Source: an uncultured Prevotella sp. (GTDB lineage Bacteria > Bacteroidota > Bacteroidia > Bacteroidales > Bacteroidaceae). From it: DNA of 64,000 nt. Of the stretch, positions 17,048 to 58,830 are shown one piece after another. The translations under genes were made by a program, and so were the position numbers. The notes below the pieces were generated by a model, which saw nothing but the letters and a program-made list of their open reading frames with translations, was not told the origin of the DNA and did not search any database. Numbering within the stretch: the first letter of the stretch is position 1; each line of letters starts with the position of its first letter. The DNA lies in assembly GCA_934272845.1 (NCBI GenBank), contig CAKQSF010000004.1, forward strand, positions 67,543 to 131,542. The letters are read 5' to 3'.

Positions 17048-17286
17048 AGTAATGTTAAAAAAATAACTTGATTATTTTATAAATGTTAGAGTAATGTTAT
17101 TTTGTACTGTTTTTATTTCACCTTGCTGGCTATTTTATGGCTATTAATCAGTCCCGAAGCGCGCATCGCCCCCCTCTGTTTTCGCTTCTCCCCCGTTTGT
17201 TGGTGGATGGCACCCATGTTTATATTCCCACAAATATCTCAGCAATCTGAGACAAGAACTGCACAAGTTATTTCTTCAACATTACT
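17048..17286 (-). repeat. Hairpin element (AGTAATG family), copy A, between ribD and ribE
   Basis: The ends AGTAATGTTAAAAAAATAAC and TTATTTCTTCAACATTACT are terminal inverted repeats. The interior matches the other copies in reverse orientation (core GCTATTAATCAGTCCCGA) with about 40 bp of extra sequence near the centre. It fills the ribE-ribD gap exactly: one end begins 3 bp from the ribE start codon and the other touches the ribD stop codon. Confidence 0.85.
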
Positions 17287-22849: not shown

Positions 22850-22870
22850 AAACGGCATGCAAGGGGCGTA

Positions 22871-23068
22871 AGTAATGTTGAAAAAATAACTTTCGCAGTT
22901 TTTATCTTAGATTGCTGAGATATTTTGGGGATATGAAGAAGGAGCGATGCGGGCATCGTGACTGATGAATAGCCACAAAATAGCCAGCAAGATAAGATAA
23001 AAAATGCGTAAGAAAACATTACTCTAACAATATAAAAAGAATGAATAAGTTATTTTTTTAACATTACT
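22871..23068 (+). repeat. Hairpin element (AGTAATG family), copy B
   Basis: A 198-bp element with terminal inverted repeats AGTAATGTTGAAAAAATAAC and GTTATTTTTTTAACATTACT. The halves are imperfect inverted copies meeting at GCGATGCGGGCATCG, so the whole element can fold as one long hairpin. It lies between the amidase and mlaD-like genes. Confidence 0.9.
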
Positions 23069-23098
23069 AATGCTCAAGAAAAGCAAAAAGTCAAGAAG

Positions 23099-27594: not shown

Positions 27595-28665
27595 ATGTTT
27601 CCTATTCTGACAATAACAGGTTCTGACAGCACTGGCGGCTCAGGCATACAGGCGGACATACGTACTATTACGGCATTGGGAGGACATCCCTTGACTGCCA
27701 TAACATCGGTAACAGTACAGGACAGCAACGGCATACGCAGAATACACAACCTGCCATTCGACTTGGTAACAGATCAGGTACGCTCCGTGATGCAGGAGAC
27801 GCATCCCTTGGCGGTGAAAGTAGGACTCGTACGTGACGTGGAGACCATTAAAGCACTGCGCAATGACATCATTGCGTGTCGCAGTATTGTGTGTGACCCT
27901 GGCTTCCTCTCATCACATGGTACACAACTGGTACCTGATGAGGCTGTGGAGGCTGTCAAGCAATTTCTTGTTCCAGAGGCTGCGCTACTTTTGTTACGCT
28001 GCAACGAAGCCGAGAGACTTGTGGGATACACAGTGGCCACAGACGATGATATGCTGAAAGCAGCACGCGAACTTATGGCTATGGGAGCAAAGGCAGTACT
28101 GCTAAGAGGTGGAAGGCAGACCGACGGAATGCTGACAGCACTATTGGCGACAACGAACGAGCATACGTTTTATACCTCACGCAACACTGACGGATGGCAG
28201 AGACATGGAGTAGGAGGAGCACTGTCAACTGCGATAACGACACGATTAGCGTTCGGAGACGACCTGAAGACAGCGATAAAGAGGGCACATGACTATATGC
28301 ACCGGCTCGTAACGTATTCTGTAACAGCACGCACTAAGGGAGAAAGACCTGCTGATTTGTATAATAAGTTTATGTCGTTGCTGGCGCAAAACTATCGCTA
28401 CGAACACGGAGTGGCGTTTTATGCTGATGCTTTGGCTATCAGCACACGTTATCTTTCGCAGATAACAGAGAAAGTAATGAGCCGCACACCGAAGCAAATA
28501 ATAGCCGACTACCTAATGCAGGAAGCACGCGCTATGCTCGAAACATCAACACTCACCATACAGGAGGTGGCAGACAAATTAGGATTCCTGTCGCAGTCAC
28601 AGTTCTCTAACTTCTTCCATTTTCAACAAAAATGCACACCTAAGGAATACAGAGAAAAGAAATAA
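27595..28665 (+). CDS. ThiD-like kinase domain fused to AraC-type DNA-binding domain, probable pdxST regulator
   Basis: Residues 1 to about 245 align with ThiD/PdxK-type vitamin kinases (ILTITGSDSTGGSGIQADIR at the N-terminus). Residues about 262-356 are an AraC helix-turn-helix pair (TIQEVADKLGFLSQSQFSNF, CTPKEYREKK). Compared with the intact ThiD at 52320-53096, three conserved sites are changed: HGTGCTLSSAI is HGVGGALSTAI (Thr and catalytic Cys lost), CDPVMISTSG is CDPGFLSSHG, and TPNIPEA is LRCNEAE. The kinase-like part is therefore probably inactive and serves as a ligand sensor (inference). pdxS and pdxT follow downstream, and a 21-bp-spaced direct repeat lies right after this gene. Alternative: an active kinase with relaxed motifs. 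Confidence 0.85.
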   Translation: MFPILTITGSDSTGGSGIQADIRTITALGGHPLTAITSVTVQDSNGIRRIHNLPFDLVTDQVRSVMQETHPLAVKVGLVRDVETIKALRNDIIACRSIVCDPGFLSSHGTQLVPDEAVEAVKQFLVPEAALLLLRCNEAERLVGYTVATDDDMLKAARELMAMGAKAVLLRGGRQTDGMLTALLATTNEHTFYTSRNTDGWQRHGVGGALSTAITTRLAFGDDLKTAIKRAHDYMHRLVTYSVTARTKGERPADLYNKFMSLLAQNYRYEHGVAFYADALAISTRYLSQITEKVMSRTPKQIIADYLMQEARAMLETSTLTIQEVADKLGFLSQSQFSNFFHFQQKCTPKEYREKK

Positions 28666-28671
28666 GTTTAT

Positions 28672-28707
28672 ATTTTAGGAACAGTATTTTATAAAATAGG
28701 AACATAT
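28672..28707 (+). promoter_or_regulatory. Direct repeat, candidate AraC-type operator for pdxST
   Basis: ATTTTAGGAACAGTA (28672-28686) and AAAATAGGAACATAT (28693-28707) share AGGAACA exactly 21 bp apart, two helical turns. This is the usual geometry for AraC-family dimers. The downstream half overlaps a TATCTTTG box. Confidence 0.6.
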
Positions 28708-28740
28708 CTTTGCATGGTTCTATATTTGTTCGTACTTTTG
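28705..28740 (+). promoter_or_regulatory. Overlapping promoter boxes upstream of pdxS
   Basis: TATCTTTG at 28705-28712 and TACTTTTG at 28733-28740 both fit the -7 consensus. TTTG of the first box is 20 bases before the second, so it can serve as the second promoter's -33. A hairpin element lies between this promoter and pdxS. Confidence 0.65.
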
Positions 28741-28748
28741 CAGGCGTA

Positions 28749-28944
28749 AGTGACGGTGAAAAAATAAATTGGTATAATTTATGTCATAGATTTTTGAGAT
28801 AGTTTGGAGACATGAAGATGGAACAATGCGAGCATTGTGACTGATGAATGGCTCCAAAATATCCAAAAAGATGTGACAAGACAACTTTATCTTAGACATT
28901 ATTTACCTCGTTAAATTGTACCAAGTTATTTTTTTACCGTCACT
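28749..28944 (+). repeat. Hairpin element (AGTAATG family), copy C, in pdxS leader
   Basis: A 196-bp element. Ends AGTGACGGTGAAAAAATAAA and TTATTTTTTTACCGTCACT carry the same changes at both ends relative to copies B and D. The core TGGAACAATGCGAGCATTGT is conserved. It makes up most of the 309-bp gap before pdxS and would form the 5' leader of the pdxST transcript. Confidence 0.88.
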
Positions 28945-28974: not shown

Positions 28975-29847
28975 ATGGAAGATAGAACAACCCTTAACCG
29001 TAACCTGGCACAGATGCTGAAGGGCGGAGTTATCATGGACGTTACAACACCTGAACAGGCACGCATAGCAGAGGCTGCTGGTGCTTGCGCAGTAATGGCA
29101 TTAGAGCGTATTCCTGCTGACATACGTGCTGCAGGAGGCGTAAGCCGTATGAGCGATCCTAAGATGATTAAGGGAATTCAGGAAGCAGTGAGCATTCCTG
29201 TAATGGCAAAGTGCCGTATAGGTCATTTCGTTGAGGCTCAGATTCTTGAGGCTATAGAGATTGACTACATTGACGAGAGTGAGGTACTGTCACCTGCTGA
29301 CGATGTTTACCACATCAACAAGCGTGAGTTTAAGGTTCCGTTCGTATGCGGAGCGAAAGACCTTGGCGAGGCATTGCGCCGCATCAACGAGGGTGCTACG
29401 ATGATTCGTACCAAGGGAGAACCAGGAACTGGTGACGTAATACAGGCTGTTCGCCACATGCGCATGATGCAGAGCGAGATGCGCCGACTTGTTTCTATGT
29501 CAGAAGATGAACTCTATGAGGCAGCAAAGCAGTTGCGCGTGCCTTACGACCTCGTTAAGTACGTTCACGAGAACGGTAAACTTCCTGTTGTTAACTTTGC
29601 TGCTGGTGGCGTTGCTACACCTGCTGACGCTGCGCTGATGATGCAACTTGGCGCTGAGGGCGTATTCGTAGGAAGCGGCATATTCAAGAGCGGTAACCCA
29701 GAGAAACGTGCACAGGCTATCGTGAAGGCTGTGACAAACTATCAGAATCCTAAGATTATAGCAGAACTTTCTGAAGACCTCGGTGAGGCTATGGTAGGCA
29801 TCAACGAGAGCGAAATAGAACTGCTCATGGCAGAGAGAGGCAAGTAA
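28975..29847 (+). CDS. pdxS: Pyridoxal 5'-phosphate synthase, lyase subunit
   Basis: Makes PLP from ribulose/ribose 5-phosphate, glyceraldehyde 3-phosphate and ammonia supplied by PdxT, as a large ring of PdxS subunits decorated with PdxT. The 290-residue length is normal. Conserved parts: [32 protein letters not shown], the lysine site [21 protein letters not shown] and [10 protein letters not shown]. Its stop overlaps the pdxT start by one base (TAATG), so the two are translationally coupled. Confidence 0.97.
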
Positions 29848-30431
29848 TGAAAAGAGTTGCTATACTTGCTCTGCAAGGAGCGTTTGCTGAACACGAGCAG
29901 ATGTTGCACCGCTTAGGAGCGGAAACCATGCAGATACGTAACCTTGCCGACTGGAATGAGTTTCTTGGCGAGGCTGGATTGGCAGGCGACTTCAAAGGGC
30001 TCGGATTGATAATACCTGGTGGTGAGAGCACTGCCATGATGCGTATAATGCGCGATGAGGCTCTCTTTGACCCCTTGCAGAAAGCCATCCGTGCAGGACT
30101 GCCAGTCTTTGGCACTTGTGCCGGACTGATATTGCTCGACAAGGTACACCTCGACACGATGAACATCACTGCACTGCGCAATGCTTACGGACGCCAATTG
30201 GGTAGTTTCTACACCGAAGCGGAGTTTAAGGGCATTGACTCTAAGGTGCCAATGACATTCATTCGTGCGCCATACATAAGTGAAGTGGGAGAGGGCGTTG
30301 ATGTACTCGCCACGGTAGACGGACGTATCATTGCGGCACGTCAGGGCAACCAACTCGTGACTGCGTTCCATCCAGAACTGAATGAAGACACACGTGTACA
30401 CGAATACTTCCTTAGTTTCGTGACAGAATAA
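29847..30431 (+). CDS. pdxT: Pyridoxal 5'-phosphate synthase, glutaminase subunit
   Basis: Hydrolyses glutamine and channels ammonia to PdxS. Class I glutamine amidotransferase fold of 194 residues: the nucleophile Cys in FGTCAGLILL near residue 91, PGGESTAMMRI for glutamine binding, and the His-Glu pair in AFHPELNED. It overlaps pdxS by one base and is followed by a hairpin element and a terminator. Confidence 0.97.
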   Translation: MKRVAILALQGAFAEHEQMLHRLGAETMQIRNLADWNEFLGEAGLAGDFKGLGLIIPGGESTAMMRIMRDEALFDPLQKAIRAGLPVFGTCAGLILLDKVHLDTMNITALRNAYGRQLGSFYTEAEFKGIDSKVPMTFIRAPYISEVGEGVDVLATVDGRIIAARQGNQLVTAFHPELNEDTRVHEYFLSFVTE

Positions 30432-30439
30432 ATACTTTA

Positions 30440-30635
30440 AGTAATATTGAAAAAATAACTTACGCAGTTTTTACCTCAGATTGCTGAGATATTTTGGGGA
30501 TATGAAGATGGAGCGATGCGAGCATCGTGACTGATGAATAGCCACAAAATAGCCAGCAAGATGAGATAAAAAATGCGCAAGAAAACATTACTCTAACAAT
30601 ATAAAAATTGAATAAGTTATTTTTTTAATATTACT
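30440..30635 (+). repeat. Hairpin element (AGTAATG family), copy D
   Basis: A 196-bp element, nearly identical to copy B inside. The ends AGTAATATTGAAAAAATAAC and GTTATTTTTTTAATATTACT share a G-to-A change on both sides. TA lies directly outside each end, compatible with a TA target duplication. It starts 9 bases after the pdxT stop codon. Confidence 0.9.
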
Positions 30636-30682
30636 TAGGTATGCAAATGAATACATGCCATTAAAGAAAAGAAAGAAATAAA

Positions 30683-35412: not shown

Positions 35413-35607
35413 AGGGTCGAAGATAAATAACTGTATATAATTTAACGAAGTGAATTTCTTAATAGATATTGTTTTGGTGTTGTTTCTTTTGGACTATGTT
35501 GAAGCCATCCATCAGTCACAATGCCTGCATTGTTCCGTCTTTATTTCTCCAAGATAACTAAAAAACACATCACATAAATTATATAAATTTATTCTTTCAT
35601 CGTCATT
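35413..35607 (-). repeat. Hairpin element (AGTAATG family), degenerate copy F
   Basis: The core ATCAGTCACAATGCCTGCAT matches copy C in reverse, and the flanking stretches (ATAATTTAACGA, ACATAAATTATATAA) line up with it to both ends. Termini are AGGGTCGAAGATAAATAAC and TTTATTCTTTCATCGTCATT. It is diverged but full length, in the gap between the GT2/GT4 gene and the acyltransferase gene. Confidence 0.75.
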
Positions 35608-52319: not shown

Positions 52320-53096
52320 CTAAAACAACCACAGCGGTCCGTTGCCCTTTCCGATGTGTAGGTTGCGCCCTCCGTTGATGCCTTTGTCTATCACCTCCTT
52401 GCCCACCTTTACCGCTTCAGGCAGCGAGAGCCCAGTGGCGAGTCCCGTAGCGATGGCACTCGACAGCGTGCATCCAGTGCCGTGAAGGTTCGTTGTCGTT
52501 ATGCGTGGCGAGCAATATTCGTGCGTTGTGCCATCAGTCGTGAAGAGAACATCGCGCATTATGCTTCCCTCACCGTGTCCTCCCTTTAAGAGAAAGGCAA
52601 TACCATATTCCTTTACGAGTACGTGCCCTATCTTTTCAAGGTCGTATTCGCCCTCGTTGCCACTGAGACGCAGAGCCTCTGGTATGTTAGGCGTGACGAG
52701 AGTGCAGAGTGGGAAGAGTTCTTTCTTGATGTACTCCACACATTCGTTGCTCATCAACTGTGTGCCACTGGTAGATATCATCACAGGGTCGCAGACGGTG
52801 GGGAGACCGAATTGCTTTATGAATTTTACGATGACGCGCGCTGACTCCACGCAAGGTATCATGCCAATCTTTATCGCCTCCACATTGATGTCGCTGAAGA
52901 CAGATTGCAACTGCGCCTCTAACATATCCTCAGGCACCGTCATTACCCTTTGCACCCCTACGGTGTTCTGCGCCGTAAGAGCCGTGGGCACGGTCACGGC
53001 ATAATGCCCTAACGACGTAATAGTCTTCAAATCCTGCTGTATTCCAGCCCCCGCCGATGTATCACTACCTGCTATTGTAAGGATTATATTCTTCAT
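52320..53096 (-). CDS. thiD: Hydroxymethylpyrimidine/phosphomethylpyrimidine kinase
   Basis: Phosphorylates HMP to HMP-PP for thiamine synthesis. The ThiD motifs are intact: LTIAGSDTSAGAGIQQDLKT, TVCDPVMISTSGTQL, LVTPNIPEALRLSG, the GG loop LLKGGHGEG and HGTGCTLSSAIATGLA with the catalytic Cys. I chose the ATG giving a 4-base ATGA overlap with the upstream gene; a start three codons earlier is possible. Last gene of the thi operon. It serves as the internal reference for the degenerate ThiD-like domain upstream of pdxS. Confidence 0.95.
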   Translation of the reverse strand: MKNIILTIAGSDTSAGAGIQQDLKTITSLGHYAVTVPTALTAQNTVGVQRVMTVPEDMLEAQLQSVFSDINVEAIKIGMIPCVESARVIVKFIKQFGLPTVCDPVMISTSGTQLMSNECVEYIKKELFPLCTLVTPNIPEALRLSGNEGEYDLEKIGHVLVKEYGIAFLLKGGHGEGSIMRDVLFTTDGTTHEYCSPRITTTNLHGTGCTLSSAIATGLATGLSLPEAVKVGKEVIDKGINGGRNLHIGKGNGPLWLF

Positions 53097-53635
53097 TTTC
53101 TCCATGCATCGCCTAATATCATTGCTCCCCCAAAGCCCATATCCTCTACCTCTTTCATGCGGTTGAAGGTGACACCGCCAAGTGCAAAGACCTTATTGTC
53201 TATCACTCCATGCGCCTTTGCCGCCAATATCTCCTCGCGACTGAAGGCGGAATGATAACCTATCTTAGAGATAGAGTCGTAGATAGGCGACAGACTAACG
53301 TAATTGCAGCGGTCTTTCCACTCTTCAACCTCTGCCAAACTGTGGCAACTTTTGCTCACGCTGCCCGTCCAACCAGCAGGTGGTTGGGGATTGCGCGAGT
53401 TGAGATGTACACCGTAAAGACCGTATTTCACGGCGAGAGAATGATGGTCGTGCAGTACGAGTCGGTCCCAACAATCACGCGGTATCTCGTTAATCAGTCG
53501 TTCTACCTCCTCTTTCGTAGCCTGAGGTTTGCGTATATGCAGCAAGTCCACATTGCCTTGACGGAGCAGACAGGCTATGCGCTCTGCCTCACCGCCAAAG
53601 AATGTGGGCTTGGTTATTATCACTGTAGTGAACAT
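53093..53635 (-). CDS. Second thiamine phosphate synthase-like protein (ThiE/TenI type)
   Basis: 180 residues, shorter than typical ThiE (about 210). The fold pattern is clear: LLHIRKPQATKEEVERLINE, LHDHHSLAVKYGLYGVHLNS, YVSLSPIYDSISKIGYHSAF and VFALGGVTFNRMKEVEDMGF. The substrate-binding patterns are changed: QLRxK of the other ThiE is HIRKP, and the acidic HLGKKD is HLNSRN. It may be a TenI-like thiazole tautomerase or a diverged synthase. It starts directly after thiH and overlaps thiD. Confidence 0.85.
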   Translation of the reverse strand: MFTTVIITKPTFFGGEAERIACLLRQGNVDLLHIRKPQATKEEVERLINEIPRDCWDRLVLHDHHSLAVKYGLYGVHLNSRNPQPPAGWTGSVSKSCHSLAEVEEWKDRCNYVSLSPIYDSISKIGYHSAFSREEILAAKAHGVIDNKVFALGGVTFNRMKEVEDMGFGGAMILGDAWRK

Positions 53636-58691: not shown

Positions 58692-58718
58692 TAATTCTTT
58701 GAAAGTCTTAAAAATTAT

Positions 58719-58822
58719 CTCATTTCCTACGGCAGCATTACCTGCATCAGGTCAATGGGTGTAATCTCAGCCTTTGTCTTCGTCAGCCTATAGCATAAGA
58801 AGACTTCTGGCACCCCCGAGTG
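58719..58822 (-). promoter_or_regulatory. TPP riboswitch
   Basis: The minus strand shows the THI-box consensus in order: CTCGGGGGTGCC, GGCTGAGATTACACCCATTG, ACCTGATGCAGGTAATGCTG and CGTAGGAAATGAG. The ligand is thiamine pyrophosphate. It controls the thiSEGCH-thiE2-thiD transcript. Confidence 0.95.
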
Positions 58823-58830
58823 TTTATATT

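Follow-up and report, generated by a model that had tools for sequence, protein, structure and literature searches.

A ThiD-like pseudokinase fused to an AraC-type domain is a candidate vitamin B6-responsive regulator of pdxST in Bacteroidales

The conversion of an enzyme fold into a sensor is a known principle of transcriptional control, represented by PdxR, ThiR, NrtR and the ROK proteins. The sensor domain of NrtR regulators is a Nudix domain; the ROK repressors NagC and Mlc combine a sugar-kinase fold with a winged helix-turn-helix (HTH); and the archaeal regulators ThiR and RbkR are either relatives of thiamine phosphate synthase or bifunctional proteins of riboflavin metabolism. A known regulator of pdxS and pdxT, the genes of pyridoxal 5'-phosphate (PLP) synthase, is PdxR, whose apo form activates pdxST and is opposed by PLP as an anti-activator, as described in PMC5320631. 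That source places PdxR control of pdxST mostly in Proteobacteria, Firmicutes and Actinobacteria; its counts also include some MocR regulators from 11 genomes of Bacteroidetes. Here, we analyzed a 64,000-nucleotide stretch of contig CAKQSF010000004.1 (assembly GCA_934272845.1, positions 67,543 to 131,542) from an uncultured Prevotella sp., hereafter the window, in which a gene upstream of pdxS and pdxT encodes a ThiD-like kinase domain fused to an AraC-type domain. The fusion appears to be a dedicated pdxS/pdxT switch in gut and rumen Bacteroidales. Among the open-licence PubMed Central (PMC) papers listed in literature searches, none dealt with this fusion or with control of pdxST by an AraC-type protein, and none described a regulator for pdxST of gut and rumen Bacteroidales; the main text of PMC9997740 contains neither 'AraC' nor 'Bacteroid'.

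The regulator is encoded by a single open reading frame, and the joining of a kinase-like and an AraC-type domain in one frame, proposed in a first-pass annotation of the window, is borne out by Pfam, with both domains complete. The N-terminal Phos_pyr_kin match scored 195.7 bits against a cut-off of 27, and the C-terminal HTH_18 match scored 66.5 bits against a cut-off of 33.6, covering profile positions 1–79 of 80. The domain score and the ThiD fold of the AlphaFold2 model (mean predicted local distance difference test score of 88.6) place the regulator in PF08543. The scores fell below the cut-offs of the enzyme models, namely TIGR00097 for ThiD, the hydroxymethylpyrimidine (HMP) and HMP phosphate (HMP-P) kinase (190.9 versus 204.95 bits), the pyridoxine kinase model NF009077 (113.4 versus 385) and the pyridoxal kinase models TIGR00687 (42.8 versus 144.5) and NF004398 (42.3 versus 292). 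Neither a GntR-type winged HTH nor an aminotransferase-like domain was among the Pfam matches of the regulator up to an E-value of 0.01. The related enzymes are ThiD/PdxK2, an HMP-P kinase, and the COG0351 pyridoxal kinases, such as those of B. subtilis (2i5b) and S. aureus (4c5j-n). Unlike ThiD/PdxK2, the fusion lacks the anion-hole Thr and Cys, the Asn of the NxxE motif and the Lys of the LLKGG motif, and carries an additional AraC domain.

The motif changes were located by alignment with the intact ThiD of the window, which is encoded amid thiamine genes (named by reading their open reading frames). The replacements of HGTGC by HGVGG and of CDPVM by CDPGF had been correctly recognized in the first-pass annotation. 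A third change, given there as TPNIPEA to LRCNEAE, is real but was placed in the wrong register: TPNIPEAL pairs with LLRCNEAE, with the Asn of NxxE replaced by Arg135 and Glu138 retained. Moreover, LLKGG is changed to LLRGG, a replacement of Lys by Arg171 that had been overlooked.

The motif columns were counted in 120 long-form and 120 short-form fusion proteins (the best 120 of 1270 and of 3116 matches, respectively, with more distant members uncounted), in 117 long-form and 36 short- or intermediate-form rows from genomic loci, which are redundant in that some genomes were fetched twice, and in five ThiD rows. The Cys of HGTGC, the catalytic residue of the ThiD anion hole, occurs in 0 of the 393 aligned fusion rows (redundancy included) but in all five rows of ThiD. 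The LLKGG Lys shows the same distribution (0/393 versus 5/5), being replaced in the long forms and deleted in the short forms. The Thr of HGTGC was likewise found to be gone, as had been claimed together with the Cys: none of the 357 rows that make up the first three sets has it, and the 36 rows of the fourth set were covered for their eight commonest residues only (30 rows). D11, D21 and G205 are retained in all 393 fusion rows, and K75 and H204 in 392 each. Gln42, which presumably contacts the substrate, is retained in 101 of 120 long-form and all 120 short-form proteins, and in 76 of 117 long-form and all 36 short- or intermediate-form locus rows. In a sister clade, the short forms, the ATP-side segment is wholly deleted. 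On these alignments, the motif loss is a trait of the family and not of one decayed gene; the fold has been kept while the chemistry has apparently been dropped, and the regulator would have lost kinase activity.

The fusion is tightly linked to pdxS. In the window, pdxS and then pdxT follow the regulator gene on the same strand, as first annotated, and both exceed their NCBIfam cut-offs. Confirmed relatives whose genome records carry titles numbered 123, and 80 of their loci were retained. Of these loci, 67 contain pdxS, which is co-directional within 500 bp in 42, divergent within 500 bp in 11 and co-directional at 0.9–6.3 kb in 14. In 8 of the 13 genomes whose fetched locus lacks pdxS, the gene lies elsewhere. 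In a sample of 301 Bacteroidaceae genomes (the family of Hallella seregens, G001; the same draw across searches, judging by the genome handles), 59 genomes contain pdxS. Long forms were found in 16 of the 301 genomes after two ThiD-alone rows (G811 and G833) were discarded, and long and short forms together in 50 by threshold, or 51 with G911, which was read from its locus L105. All 51 have pdxS, and the fusion is thus present in 51 of the 59 genomes with pdxS versus none of the 242 without it (Fisher's exact p 1e-49, a value that ignores kinship and comes from a search scoring few candidates per genome). The linkage of the fusion to pdxST is close to obligatory. Fusion homologues with intact motifs and no linkage to pdxST, which the first-pass annotation had named as evidence against a regulatory role, did not appear.

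Broader searches, which scored only the best five to seven candidates per genome and therefore give lower bounds, found the fusion in at least 1 of 395 genomes of the class, the sole match being the genome on which the search was centered, and in at least 6 of 393 genomes of the order, the central genome included. A plasmid collection gave 60 matching records, all below 60% identity and none covering 80% of the query; among the ten matches listed, seven are annotated as ThiD or phosphomethylpyrimidine kinase and the others carry no annotation. Where fusion proteins have a database name, it is HMP/HMP-P kinase, and this naming may place a false ThiD in metabolic reconstructions of gut bacteria.

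AraC/XylS regulators bind ahead of the promoter they control, at tandem direct half-sites spaced by approximately two helical turns, and a half-site that adjoins the -33 element is characteristic of class II activation by such proteins. The regions preceding pdxS have in common a pair of direct GGAAC half-sites with a spacing of 21 bp, and then TTTG and TAnnTTTG; this repeat fits the AraC/XylS arrangement. The two downstream elements correspond to the Bacteroides housekeeping promoter, given in PMC7366714 as TTTG at -33 and TAnnTTTG at -7. In the window, the repeat and promoter span positions 28678–28740 and had been missed. In a test using a 30-column matrix trained with each 65%-identity regulator cluster held out, 74 of 85 non-identical pdxS upstream regions passed, each outscoring 99% or more of 200 shuffles. 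Passing regions occurred in 23 of 29 clusters, with a mild leak into the test from picking site positions with the all-sequence matrix. Measured from where half-site 2 begins, the distance to the first TAnnTTTG is 34 bp in 42 of the 74 passing regions and 35 bp in three; a match at 34 bp is the second one in L003 and L028 and a later one in the window. The repeat also precedes pdxS in all eight genomes in which pdxS lies outside the fetched regulator locus (0 of 300 shuffles in each case), although one of these (L193) repeats L025, leaving seven new cases, and the matrix contained relatives of most. At the eight pdxS loci without a fusion nearby, the matrix scan detected no repeat (p 0.58–0.875). 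In the short forms, the regulator is usually first in the operon and is preceded by a related repeat with a similar half-site 2; a related repeat also stands before pdxS where pdxS has its own promoter. The near-obligatory linkage and the conserved operator-like repeat at the pdxS promoter support the earlier proposal that the regulator controls pdxST.

A strict version of the pattern was searched in 35 genomes and gave 22 sites in 21 genomes, 21 of which are pdxS promoters; the recovery of pdxS sites proves nothing here because the pattern was drawn from them. The sole match outside pdxS promoters is L183 (G1094), and the reversed pattern gave no match in the same genomes. Further strong sites are, by this pattern, rare in the 35 genomes, and a wider regulon was rejected with this one extra site. 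Autoregulation as a general feature of the long forms was also rejected, since just 5 of the 64 co-directional loci had a site ahead of the regulator gene. Separately, upstream of pdxS, half-site 2 often forms one arm of a hairpin (GGAACGGA...TCCGTTCC type) with a run of T residues behind it. This hairpin was seen in L002, L004, L027, L029, L032 and other co-directional loci, is weak in the window and was not seen in the divergent L048; it may perhaps terminate transcription of the regulator gene or act as an attenuator.

We consider it likely that the fusion is a dedicated pdxST regulator in which a vitamin B6-sensing pseudokinase governs an AraC-type activator. The N-terminal domain would descend from a ThiD/PdxK2-type vitamin kinase that lost phosphate transfer, and it may serve as a vitamin B6 sensor because the substrate side of the kinase fold is largely retained. 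The AraC-type domain would bind the two GGAAC half-sites, the promoter-proximal one adjoining the -33 element of the pdxS promoter in a predicted class II arrangement. The ligand-free regulator would activate pdxST, and PLP, the product of PdxST, or pyridoxal would end activation by occupying the dead kinase pocket. The regulator is probably an activator switched off by its ligand, for which PLP seems likelier than pyridoxal; the titles of 4ywr, 4c5l and 4c5n indicate that the ThiD-type fold accommodates both compounds. With less assurance, we lean toward a broader reading, in which the fusion is the main vitamin B6 regulator of PdxST-using Bacteroidales, built from a dead kinase whose ATP segment was later cut to leave a ligand-binding mini-ThiD; this deletion occurred in parts of the lineage, perhaps several times independently.

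The proposed regulator resembles ROK repressors in using a kinase-fold domain as a ligand sensor, but theirs is not a vitamin kinase. Like PdxR as described in PMC5320631, it would be a dedicated pdxST regulator with a PLP-binding enzyme-fold sensor, but with neither a GntR HTH nor an aminotransferase domain among its Pfam matches, the likeness is convergent at most. It shares with ThiR and RbkR a vitamin-pathway enzyme domain within a transcription factor (PMC6593275), whereas those regulators have other domains, serve other vitamins and belong to Archaea, and RbkR is bifunctional by title, which is not expected of the fusion. The NrtR family, including BtAraR of the Bacteroidales gut species Bacteroides thetaiotaomicron (PMC4666351), likewise carries an enzyme-like sensor domain on a transcription factor, but with another fold and in another pathway. 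If the proposal is true, the fusion would provide the first known case of PLP sensing by an AraC-family regulator via a ribokinase-fold pseudokinase, and its family would provide a natural deletion series of enzyme-to-sensor conversion. The long, intermediate and short forms offer a natural series on which part of the kinase ligand sensing needs, and the location of the predicted operator to the base makes the proposal directly testable in vitro.

Several observations weigh against this proposal. The held-out test was failed by 11 of the 85 regions, and L086, L097 and L099 carry a site ahead of the regulator gene rather than ahead of pdxS. A perfect TAnnTTTG is lacking downstream in 26 of the 74 passing regions. 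When the 36 short-form loci were scanned with the long-form matrix, taking whichever of two regions scored better and without correction, 9 reached p<0.01 and 18 reached p<0.05, and the likeness of the repeat in the remaining loci was judged by eye. The strict pattern missed the pdxS site in 14 of the 35 genomes and in G1094, and would likewise miss weaker targets. Eight pdxS genomes have no fusion in the fetched stretch (L104, L139, L141, L142, L144, L145, L146 and L147), and 5 of the 13 genomes lacking pdxS at the regulator locus show no pdxS at all, in assemblies with no stated completeness; L076 extends 8 kb on each side with neither pdxS nor a strong site. Gln42 is not fixed in the long forms. 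Finally, the promoter geometry alone is also compatible with repression.

The same regulator could act with the opposite sign, as a repressor of pdxST with a B6 vitamer as corepressor, which we regard as unlikely yet the most serious alternative. End-product repression is a usual logic of biosynthetic operons, and half-site 2 is near enough to -33 for a bound protein to block polymerase. However, the long-form repeat lies upstream of the region from -33 to +1 and not across it, with a constant spacing of 34 bp to -7 in most cases, in the manner of class II activation, and in the short forms a similar repeat precedes the regulator–pdxST operon itself. The unrelated PdxR is also described as an activator (PMC5320631). 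An improbable alternative is that the domain responds to HMP or HMP-P, intermediates in thiamine synthesis, in place of a B6 vitamer, and couples the supply of vitamins B1 and B6. The domain is indeed closer to ThiD than to other kinases by the TIGR00097 and NF009077 scores, but the repeat and gene linkage indicate pdxST, the thi cluster of the window has its own thiamine pyrophosphate (TPP) riboswitch on its 5' side (55.9 bits; gathering threshold 54.3), and ThiD-type proteins also bind pyridoxal and PLP by the structure titles named above.

Very unlikely, in our view, is a bifunctional enzyme-regulator that slowly phosphorylates pyridoxal or HMP. In its favor, the long forms preserve the entire fold and a large part of the pocket. 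Against it, every long-form row counted carries substitutions at the catalytic- and ATP-site Cys, Thr, Asn and Lys, and short forms without the ATP-side segment still keep the gene linkage. A separate full-length ThiD-type match accompanies the fusion in 11 of 18 fusion genomes and a split or partial one in two more (G824 and G002), leaving five with only weak or partial matches (G001 Hallella seregens, G995, G1034, G953 and G1033), as a bifunctional protein might allow. That an unrelated AraC regulator neighbors pdxST by chance is scarcely credible: some loci do have the gene at the end of a putative glycogen operon, often with a 4-bp overlap and with pdxS 0.9–4.1 kb off or outside, but the link holds in divergent, co-directional and unlinked layouts, the repeat accompanies pdxS in each, and the fusion was not detected in any genome without pdxS in the family sample.

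PdxR-type regulators are long proteins that carry a GntR HTH, and control by GntR/MocR proteins was accordingly considered, and rejected on a search for GntR domains in 26 genomes. Frames of at least 400 amino acids with a GntR domain above cut-off numbered one in the 18 fusion genomes and none in the eight pdxS genomes without a fusion nearby. The single frame (G881, 548 amino acids) lies on contig C95, with pdxS on C156, and all other GntR frames above cut-off have 119–338 amino acids.

Table 1. Positions of the regulator, its predicted operator and target genes, and other features in the window
Feature	Positions	Strand	Basis
Regulator gene, 356 amino acids (predicted ThiD-fold pseudokinase and AraC-type HTH)	27595..28665	+	Open reading frame, Pfam, NCBIfam, AlphaFold2
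Phos_pyr_kin domain (PF08543, ThiD-like), residues 11-246	27625..28332	+	Pfam
Changed anion-hole/catalytic motif, HGVGG for HGTGC, residues 204-208	28204..28218	+	Alignment with ThiD
AraC-type HTH_18 domain (PF12833), residues 276-354	28420..28656	+	Pfam
Predicted operator half-site 1, GGAACA	28678..28683	+	Repeat search, held-out matrix
Predicted operator half-site 2, GGAACA, 21 bp after half-site 1	28699..28704	+	Repeat search, held-out matrix
Predicted -33 element of pdxS promoter, TTTG	28709..28712	+	Consensus in PMC7366714
Predicted -7 element, TACTTTTG (TAnnTTTG), 34 bp after half-site 2 start	28733..28740	+	Consensus in PMC7366714
pdxS, PLP synthase lyase subunit, predicted target	28975..29847	+	NF003215 514.3 bits (cut-off 395); TIGR00343 508.3 (cut-off 438.45)
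pdxT, PLP synthase glutaminase subunit, predicted target	29847..30431	+	TIGR03800 206.3 bits (cut-off 105.55)
Intact ThiD	52320..53105	-
TPP riboswitch	58707..58827	-
MITE-like element	17048..17286		blastn, ends
MITE-like element	22866..23073		blastn, ends
MITE-like element	28749..28944		blastn, ends
MITE-like element	30438..30637		blastn, ends
MITE-like element	35425..35605		blastn, ends

Some loci depart from the common layout. Long-form regulators occur at L076 (G006) and L065 (G1113), in assemblies where no pdxS was found; either part of the sequence is missing there or the regulator is an orphan that serves a different target. One assembly (G972) has two pdxS loci (L109 and L110), each with its own short-form regulator. 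Where no fusion is nearby, pdxS in L142 and L144 adjoins a similar 534-amino-acid gene, that of L144 being an ATP-type phosphoenolpyruvate carboxykinase by Pfam. The putative glycogen operon that ends in the regulator gene includes a debranching enzyme, a glycosyltransferase and a GH57 protein (named by reading the sequences) and was seen in L027, L029, L038, L039, L041, L044–L047, L050–L052, L055, L061, L063 and L071. The overlap is with the GH57 gene, and pdxST is adjacent in L027.

The window also contains five intergenic elements resembling miniature inverted-repeat transposable elements (MITEs), approximately 180–240 bp long with inverted arms of 19–38 nt. Two of them flank pdxST, one upstream between the predicted promoter and pdxS, which had escaped the first-pass annotation, and one downstream. 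The inverted repeat of the upstream element was considered as an operator and rejected, as it belongs to the intergenic set and lies downstream of the predicted promoter; it had no blastn copy at E≤0.001 in loci L001–L103. Four of the elements are clearly alike by blastn, and the one at 17048 is weakly so (E 0.034) but has similar ends.
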